From Candidatus Aminicenantota bacterium (GTDB lineage: Bacteria; Acidobacteriota; Aminicenantia; Aminicenantales; JAFGBC01), in assembly GCA_022867325.1 (NCBI GenBank), contig JALHUR010000013.1, positions 1-38,058 on the forward strand: a stretch of DNA of 38,058 nucleotides, written 5' to 3'. Below, piece by piece: positions 13,891 to 32,871 of the stretch. Below the pieces are notes generated by a model. The model ran no database searches, was not told where the DNA came from, and saw only the letters and a list, made by a program, of their open reading frames with translations. Position numbers and translations under genes: made by a program. Each line of letters starts with the position of its first letter. Position 1 is the first letter of the stretch.

Positions 13891-14081
13891 GATCGGGGTC
13901 AAACCTACACTTTTGCCTTTAGTGCAAATTGACCCGTTCGCCGACGCTAAGCCCCGCCTTTAAAGGCGGGGACGAGAAGCGAGGCTCAGGGTTAACCCTG
14001 AGCAAGCCCCGGCATTCATGCCGGGGAGTCGATGGGTTGACTTTTTGCACTTTGTGACAAAGTGTAGGTTTGACCCCGATC
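13891..14081. repeat. REP-like element with perfect 23-bp outer inverted repeats, split by an insertion
   Basis: GATCGGGGTCAAACCTACACTTT (13891-13913) and AAAGTGTAGGTTTGACCCCGATC (14059-14081) are exact reverse complements. Confidence 0.8.
13934..14041 (+). mobile_element. 108-bp non-autonomous insertion with multi-stem RNA-like fold (HEARO/omega-RNA- or IS200/IS605-derived-like), copy 1
   Basis: CCGTTCGCCGACGCTAAGCCCCGCC...GGCGGGGACGAGAAGCGAGG CTCAGGGTTAACCCTGAG CAA GCCCCGGCATTCATGCCGGGG AGTCGATGGGTTGAC; flanked by TTGAC on the left and ending in TTGAC; homologous to 28699-28848. Confidence 0.7.
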
Positions 14082-14232
14082 GCTAGTGGGCGGCGATGCC
14101 GAGGGCGGCGATCGAGTTGCTGTCATGGACGCCGGCCGCGGGACTCCTCCCGTCTCCTCCTCCCGCATTTTGCCGCCGGTCGAATGAATTTCTCTTTTTT
14201 CAGGGCTTCTGCGGCACAGGGCTCCCGGGAAT

Positions 14233-15562: not shown

Positions 15563-15835
<273 letters not shown>

Positions 15836-28203: not shown

Positions 28204-29511
28204 ATGAAAAAGATTTTTGTGATTTGTTGGTGTGTCATCAGTCTGTCAGCCATAGCAAGCGCTCAAACTCTGGTCACCAGGAGCGTTGTGAGCGATCAGA
28301 AGGGGAAAGACTATGCGCCAAATATCGTGCCGACGAGCGACGGCCAGTGGGCCGTCTTTTGGGCCCGGGACAAAGGTAGTGAAAACGTGATGATCCGAGG
28401 CCGAGGACTGCAGTCAGATGGGACGATCCTTACCGGCATTAGAAACCTGATCGGAGCGACACTCTATCGCCAGACGACTTTTGGAGGAGCGTCTCTCGGC
28501 AAGGGGCAGATCGTGGTGGGAGGGACACGTGAATCCGATCGCCAAATCGTGACGCGCGTCTATGACTCGAAATTGATAGCCAAGGCCAATCTTGTCGCTA
28601 CTGGGCAGACAGGGTTTAACACGACGTTTGCGCCATGCGCTTCGGGTGTGCTTTTGGCCTGGACAGACGCCATCGGCGCCCACATTGCTCCGCTCGACCC
28701 GTTCGCCGACGCTAAGCCCCGCCTTTCAAGGCGGGGACGAGAAGCGACACTTTTGTACTCAGCCCCTTGAGAGGAGATGGGGCTGAGTGGGCTCAGGGTT
28801 AACCCCGAACAAGCCCCGGCATTCATGCTGGGGGGTCGAGGGGTTGACTCGACGGGCCGATTCACCTCTTCCCCCCTTGAGCTGCCGACAGCCTCAAAGG
28901 CGCATTTTCTTCAACCAACCCGCATCGCCGCGACTCCCAATGGATACCTGGTCGTGGGCCTTGAGACGTACGCTGACTACAGTTTGAGACGTACGAGCGG
29001 CAATCTTGTAACCACCGATTTATCGAAGGCTAGCAAGGCCATCATCTACGAATCATCATTCAGCGAGCACGCCTTTGCAGCCGATGCCGCATGGGAGGGG
29101 AAGACCGGTTACACGCTGTTCGGACGGCGCGTCAACGACTCAAAAACCAGCGGTTATTTTCGAAAAATTAACGCCGCCGGAAAGCCGGCCGCGGCAGCGA
29201 AAAAGTTTCCGCCCAACAAAGCTCCTAACACCTGTAACTACCGAATCATCCCCCTCACGGGCACCGGCTGGTTTGCCACAACATGGTATGACTACAGCCA
29301 GGAGCTCATGTATCTGCAAATACTGTCCTCAAAGGGAACCTTCATGGGCAGCCCCGTCCCCATTTCGGAAAATGCCTATCGCATCCTGGACGACGTCGTC
29401 GACATGGCGTGGGACGCGGCATCGCAGAGGATCCTTGTCGCATACGCCGAGTACGCGGCAGCGCCGTCAACACCTGAGGACATTTGGGTCGCGATCTTCA
29501 GCCTGGAATAA
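28204..29511 (+). pseudogene. Secreted protein gene of unknown function interrupted by a 150-bp insertion
   Basis: MKKIFVICWCVISLSAIASAQ...IAPLD (28204-28698) and STGRFTSSPLELP...IFSLE (28849-29511) join in frame when 28699-28848 is removed, giving 385 aa; GGGAGG Shine-Dalgarno site before 28204. Confidence 0.75.
28699..28848 (+). mobile_element. 150-bp non-autonomous insertion with multi-stem RNA-like fold, copy 2
   Basis: Same 5' CCGTTCGCCGACGCTAAGCCCCGCCTTTnAAGGCGGGGACGAGAAGCGA and 3' GGCTCAGGGTTAACCC...AAGCCCCGGCATTCATGC...GTCGAnGGGTTGAC as copy 1, plus a 42-bp internal hairpin segment. Confidence 0.75.
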
Positions 29512-32628: not shown

Positions 32629-32718
32629 GGAGGGATGGCCGAGTGGTTTAAGGCGGCGGTCTTGAAAACCGCTTTCCGGTCTTCCGGAACGGGGGTTCGA
32701 ATCCCTCTCCCTCCGCCA
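32629..32718 (+). tRNA. tRNA-Ser (TGA), CCA encoded
   Basis: GGAGGGA...TCCCTCC acceptor stem, long variable arm, anticodon loop CTTGAAA, GGTTCGAATCC T-arm, GCCA end. Confidence 0.95.
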
Positions 32719-32777
32719 GACACCCCGGTTTGATTCCTCCCCGAAACGTGCTAAAATAACTCCGCTTTTCAGGCCGC

Positions 32778-32871
<94 letters not shown>

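Follow-up and report, generated by a model that had tools for sequence, protein, structure and literature searches.

A gene for a secreted protein in the analyzed window, a stretch of 38,058 nucleotides from a Candidatus Aminicenantota bacterium, is interrupted by 150 bases, and the question raised by this locus is what the insert is and how it came to lie there. The insert (28699-28848) starts with CCGTTCGCC and ends with GGGGTTGAC, and both ends were identical to those of other copies of the same family. The two ORFs described in an earlier note on this DNA (28204-28770 and 28777-29511) were both present, and its proposal that they are halves of one gene with an insert of exactly these limits was confirmed. 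Joining of the flanks, 28698 to 28849, resulted in a single open frame (IAPLD/STGRF), and the alignment to a paralogue (G000:C147, 36% identity) spanned the joint and was without the 50 extra codons. No Pfam match was obtained for either half of the gene, which was seen only in the host genome, together with distant paralogues. The stem-forming ability claimed for the insert was borne out for DNA as well as RNA. Folded as single-stranded DNA the insert had a z-score of -4.68 and as opposite-strand RNA a z-score of -4.75, and in both cases 0 of 200 shuffles were equally good. Features of the insert and of a second copy in the window are collected in Table 1. The window also holds a bacterial large SRP RNA and two tRNA genes (15565-15833 and 32629-32868), which were found to be ordinary.

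Table 1. Coordinates of the split gene, the insert and the second copy in the window
Feature	Position	Strand	Remark
Split secreted-protein gene	28204-29511	+	halves 28204-28698 and 28849-29511
Host target pentanucleotide TCGAC	28694-28698	+	directly 5' of insertion; family consensus TTGAC
Fixed left end CCGTTCGCC	28699-28707	+	common to copies
Left hairpin	28710-28746	+	outer stem CGCT/AGCG enclosing CCCCGCC/GGCGGGG
Middle hairpin module, CACTTTTGTACTCAGCCCC...GGGGCTGAGTG	28748-28789	+	42 bp
Internal motif GGCTCAGGGTTAACCCCG	28790-28807	+	most conserved; candidate guide
GTTAACCCC	28798-28806	+	able to pair with terminal GGGGTTGAC
Right near-terminal hairpin CCCCGGCAT/ATGCTGGGG	28814-28833	+	
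Fixed right end GGGGTTGAC	28840-28848	+	TTGAC belongs to element
Second copy, same window	13934-14041	+	108-bp form without middle module
Target TTGAC of second copy	13929-13933	+	

Copies, ends and target sites

A DNA search of the host genome (3.73 Mb in 498 contigs) gave at least 40 homologous places with long matches. The exact 14-mer TTGACCCGTTCGCC, consisting of target and left end, occurred at least 110 times in this genome, compared to 0 times for the reversed-pattern control. It was found 17 times in genome G006 and 12 times in G012, and in none of the remaining 139 genomes of this class more than twice. In a scan of 85,462 named genomes, real elements were observed in Candidatus Aminicenantes/Acidobacteria MAGs, and the matches in other organisms were without the right end. 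Copies are thus abundant, and the lack of any others, which the earlier note had named as evidence against its reading, was not observed. A total of 122 distinct elements of 37-398 bp was collected from Aminicenantes genomes, all beginning with CCGTTCGCC (one mismatch permitted) and nearly all ending in TTGAC. Spurious antisense ORFs are frequent at the G+C content of the host. The copies are probably recent, because they are near-identical; the second copy in the window is identical to a copy on contig C9. This second copy sits on the edge of another repeat family. It is directly followed (14042-14085) by TTTTTGCACTTTGTGACAAAGTGTAGGTTTGACCCCGATCG, the inverted-repeat sequence that flanks a Y1 gene at locus L033.

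The ends of the element are fixed, CCGTTCGCC...GGGGTTGAC, and the interior is a changing set of hairpins, some of them nested. Base frequencies in the left flank of 78 copies were T83 T93 G84 A98 C98 percent, giving the consensus TTGAC; the left flank TCGAC had been read correctly at the window copy, though it departs from this consensus. TTGAC was present on both sides of 82 of the 122 distinct elements, as expected if a DDE transposase moved a conventional MITE and duplicated a 5-bp TTGAC target. However, 38 distinct elements had another left pentamer (among them TTCAC, TTAAC, CTGAC and the TCGAC of the window copy) and an unchanged TTGAC at the right end. Because these 38 elements keep the right TTGAC, a 5-bp target duplication is excluded for the sequences compared, in agreement with the earlier note. 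A MITE of the duplicating type is thereby ruled out by the mismatched flanks, unless all of them are later mutations of the left side only. The ends are furthermore not mutual inverted repeats and the target is almost fixed; a DDE-type MITE is highly improbable. At one G006 locus (L151) the left pentamer is TTCAC and the right TTTAC, and the empty site in G079 has TTCAC.

Empty sites were looked for by joining the 90-bp flanks of 14 G006 copies and searching 13 relatives. A sequence across the junction was found in other genomes of the genus for 13 of the 14 filled sites queried. The occurrence of empty sites in relatives, suggested earlier as a check, was established for these copies: the sites are precise and carry a single TTGAC. 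Clean examples (slash, insertion point) are CGCATTGAC/AGGCC and CAGATTGAC/AGGAG in G079, GGCCTTGAC/AGGC in G081 and G052, and CATTTGAC/TTCCGGCGGG in G012. The G012 site lies upstream of a gene whose start we take to be that of ribosomal protein L21. Some matched G012 sites keep a scar resembling the right end, e.g. GGGGAGTCCAGGGGTTGAC, and are, with this right-end piece, decayed copies and not virgin sites.

At one orthologous site two identical 82-bp units were arranged head-to-tail in G006 and a single one was present in G012. At another, a 187-bp element in G006 was matched by tandem 83-bp units in G012. Head-to-tail arrays are to be expected if the terminal TTGAC can itself be a target. 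At two further G012 loci (L164 and L085), tandem arrays consisted of very short units (48 and 54 bp) in which neither fixed end was missing.

Hairpin modules, internal motif and the question of the mobilizer

The 108-bp form consists of the left hairpin, the motif GGCTCAGGGTYAACCC and the right hairpin. Of the collected copies, 31 contained the 42-bp middle module and 32 lacked it precisely; its termini, YACTCA/TGAGTR, recur in other modules. Other modules sit, likewise precisely inserted, in the loop of either the left or the right hairpin, and longer copies carry extra hairpins at the right near-terminal hairpin; a 340-bp copy folded with a z-score of -12.5. Modules in the host genome often share the termini YACTCA...TGAGTR around 34 distinct interiors. 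One such hairpin occurred 42 times, and nearly all of the 15 places read were within an element. A hairpin of the same type without recognizable element ends nearby (L325:202-223 in G000:C212) is possibly a free-standing module. In an alignment of 31 copies the drawn structure was paired in 94.6% of cells, compared to 38-53% when the partner was slid, and helices 1-2, which form the left hairpin, were paired in 91-92%. Two-sided, compensatory changes were found at five pairs, with shuffles that do not control for relatedness, and the covariation support for the stems is modest.

The most conserved part of the interior is GGCTCAGGGT-AA-CC. GTYAACCCC is able to pair with the terminal GGGGTTGAC and also with TTGACCC at the left junction. 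When the internal GTYAANNNN was compared with the right end, the four variable positions were fully paired in 65 of 90 elements; no count as high was obtained in 2000 shuffles, in which the relatedness of the elements was uncontrolled. The motif was not found in 32 of the 122 elements. In IS200/IS605 elements, guides pair with the cut sites (PMC6006769, PMC8266576), and by analogy the internal motif may be a guide of this kind.

The earlier note had interpreted the insert as a protein-less HEARO/omega-RNA-like unit, i.e. an expressed guide-RNA scaffold loading a flanking guide onto IscB, IsrB or TnpB. Much of this description stood, as the element is structured, protein-less, present in multiple copies and located 3' of a short motif without duplication, and GNRA-type loops (GAAA, GTAA) are seen in some modules when read as RNA. 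The HEARO/omega-RNA identity itself was not supported. At the gathering score the window element and 14 loci with longer copies were without a match in Rfam, and a relaxed threshold gave weak, unrelated matches only. TnpB (PF07282) was absent in five genomes of the order, in a search where the positive controls matched. A search for the IscB domain (PF14239) gave no match and its control set was also silent. Furthermore, the interior, with its range of lengths and its swapped modules, is too variable for one conserved guide-RNA scaffold, and both orientations are seen among the hairpin loops (TTTC and GAAA). A guide-RNA unit of this type is therefore highly improbable.

The closest described kind of element are the PATEs, palindrome-associated transposable elements of Haloquadratum walsbyi (PMC3119063). 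PATEs are short, gene-less, present in many copies and without terminal inverted repeats; they have palindromes near both ends and an adjoining short conserved target oligonucleotide without duplication, and other small repeats insert into their near-terminal palindromes (PMC3119063). The present element is likewise, at 37-398 bp, too short for a transposase gene, has palindromes near both ends and no terminal inverted repeats, and follows a fixed short target on its 5' side without target duplication. The end palindromes of PATEs have their relatives in a host transposon of the IS605 type. No such parent transposon with matching ends was found here, a provisional result in a draft genome, and since it was looked for and not found, the element is filed as PATE-like and not as a member. 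It also differs in its TTGAC target and its own terminal TTGAC, in its enrichment at -35 boxes, in its far more modular hairpins and in its host, a bacterial phylum. The modules resemble SMR-A of Haloquadratum, which are short, have terminal inverted repeats (YACTCA/TGAGTR here) and lie inside PATE palindromes (PMC3119063). SMR-A are about 110 bp, whereas the modules here are about 25-45 bp and occur almost only inside elements, and their independent mobility is putative.

Insertion 3' of a T-rich tetra- or pentanucleotide without duplication, together with subterminal hairpins, is shared with IS200/IS605 elements such as IS608 and ISDra2; the target of group A IStrons is TTGAT (PMC4227781). 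Unlike these, the present element has no tnpA or tnpB inside, the same pentamer serves as left target and as right terminus, and a single internal motif, which matches the right end and possibly the left junction by complementarity, is the candidate guide. The anatomy of the element points to a Y1/HUH enzyme as the probable mobilizer. Four Y1 genes are present in the host genome, three of them TnpA_REP-like. Element ends were not found to border these four loci (provisional, as the genome is a draft), nor were they present in the flanks of 30 Y1 loci examined. A Y1 (TIRYT-like) transposase gene at L033:1372-2441 lies between 43-bp inverted repeats; Pfam identified Y1_Tnp only and no helix-turn-helix domain, and a truncated copy of the element lies in the 3' end of the gene. 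It is similar in general type to TnpA_REP subclass 2.1/TIRYT (PMC6006769) by its inverted repeats, which contain GGGGTCAAACC and from which the ends of the present element differ. An IS200 copy (L031) was rejected as parent because its hairpins differ (CCCCGCGGC).

The elements could instead be REP/BIME-type repeats of the resident TnpA_REP transposases, in particular of the L033 enzyme. Their copy number is REP-like, and the three TnpA_REP-like genes would provide the enzymes. The L033-type flanking repeats, which end in GGTTTGACCCC and have similar counterparts around Y1 genes in G050, G052 and G058, share a short TTTGACCCC with the TTGAC/CC junction of the element, a faint likeness that is also seen in those three genomes. 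However, no TnpA_REP-like gene was bordered by element ends. The elements have a direction, the left end being distinct from the right, and are not inverted pairs, and the consensus of 31 copies is without the GTAG tag of classical REPs. In addition, G001 and G012, both draft MAGs, hold copies, and a Y1 gene was not detected in either. A REP/BIME origin is accordingly unlikely. No autonomous copy, or transposase with element ends, was found among the elements read, which covered all but about 35 of the left ends in the host genome. Left ends without a nearby right end were contig ends, truncated copies or chance matches, and none was recognized as carrying a transposase.

Insertion at predicted -35 boxes

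To the right of the element a recurrent pattern, TTGAC(A/T)-N17-TANNNT, was observed, with A or T directly after TTGAC in 62 of 78 copies. A -10 box was defined as a hexamer identical to TATAAT in at least four of six positions and was counted at each distance. A sharp peak was found at a spacer of 17 bp, both in the host genome (17 of 78 copies, p = 8e-12, with a background of 2.5% per offset) and in G006 (7 of 14, p = 5e-8). With spacers of 16-19 bp, 32 of 78 host copies had a -10 box, compared to 3-9 at shifted offsets, and in G006 it was 12 of 14 copies compared to 0-4. Among unoccupied TTGAC sites only 52 of 359 (14.5%) had a -10 box, significantly fewer than the 32 of 78 occupied ones (Fisher p = 7e-7). 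The same -35/-10 spacing was seen in empty sites of other species, e.g. TTGACACTCCCGCCGAATCCGGCTTTACT. Two G006 insertions are located upstream of reading frames starting MKRTFQPNNRRRK and MYAVIVTGGKQYRVKEGD, presumably ribosomal proteins L34 and L21.

Judged from these motif matches, which are not mapped transcription starts, insertions are frequently at sigma-70 -35 boxes. Insertion splits the predicted promoter after the -35 core, which is replaced by the last five bases of the element, and the terminal TTGAC is thereby predicted to rebuild a -35 box with the proper spacing to the -10 box, which is left untouched. The window copy at 28699 is an exception, as its imperfect target, CTCGAC, lies inside a coding gene and not in a promoter, and the gene is consequently disrupted. 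Correia and other promoter-carrying prokaryotic MITEs are also gene-less, lie upstream of genes and contribute promoter parts (PMC10969869). They are, however, inverted-repeat elements that bring their own promoter sequences (PMC10969869), whereas the present element appears to split and rebuild an existing -35 box. A literature search of limited reach gave no description of such an element inserting at and rebuilding -35 boxes; frequent sigma-70 -35 targeting with restoration by the TTGAC of the element thus seems, as far as found, to be unreported.

The enrichment at promoters could be due to survivor bias, any TTGAC being picked and gene-damaging copies being purged. Many host copies are at TTGAC without a recognizable -10 box and some are inside genes. 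Between preference of the enzyme and survival of the copies, survival is the simpler and more economical account and is moderately favored for this part of the finding; it leaves the anatomy of the rebuilt promoter uncontradicted.

The preferred reading, with a probability of roughly 0.7, is that the family is non-autonomous mobile DNA that moves as single-stranded DNA via a Y1/HUH transposase supplied in trans, similar to the IS200/IS605-derived PATEs, and that rebuilds -35 boxes on insertion. Sequence comparison shows insertion behind TTGAC, or a close variant of it, with no duplication, a 3' terminus that is again TTGAC, and near-terminal hairpins on either side of an interior in which hairpin modules come and go. 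Pairing of the internal GTYAACCCC with the terminal GGGGTTGAC, and possibly with the target TTGACCC, may act as the guide fixing the cut sites. Promoter insertions would be tolerated even upstream of essential genes because the -35 boxes are rebuilt, and enrichment at promoters would follow from this. The TTGAC end of an inserted element could in turn serve as a new target, giving rise to the head-to-tail arrays. A more far-reaching version is tentative and rather doubtful, namely that the system recognizes the sigma-70 -35 hexamer as such for integration and rebuilds it from its own terminus, that the hairpins are second, smaller mobile modules, and that the mobilizer is an unrecognized enzyme. 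If this were true, promoters of essential genes would be occupied harmlessly and their upstream regions replaced by a modular hairpin block.

The family is real, abundant and mobile, and has an unusual, promoter-restoring insertion logic. Choosing TTGAC and ending in TTGAC would explain in a simple way how promoters can be filled by a parasite that leaves its host alive. More than 100 copies are present in a single genome, and sister species of a relative carry empty sites, so that one insertion can be directly compared with its empty counterpart for effects on regulation. Like the SMR-A repeats in PATEs, the hairpin modules nested in other hairpins suggest that very small mobile DNA may generally settle in palindrome loops.
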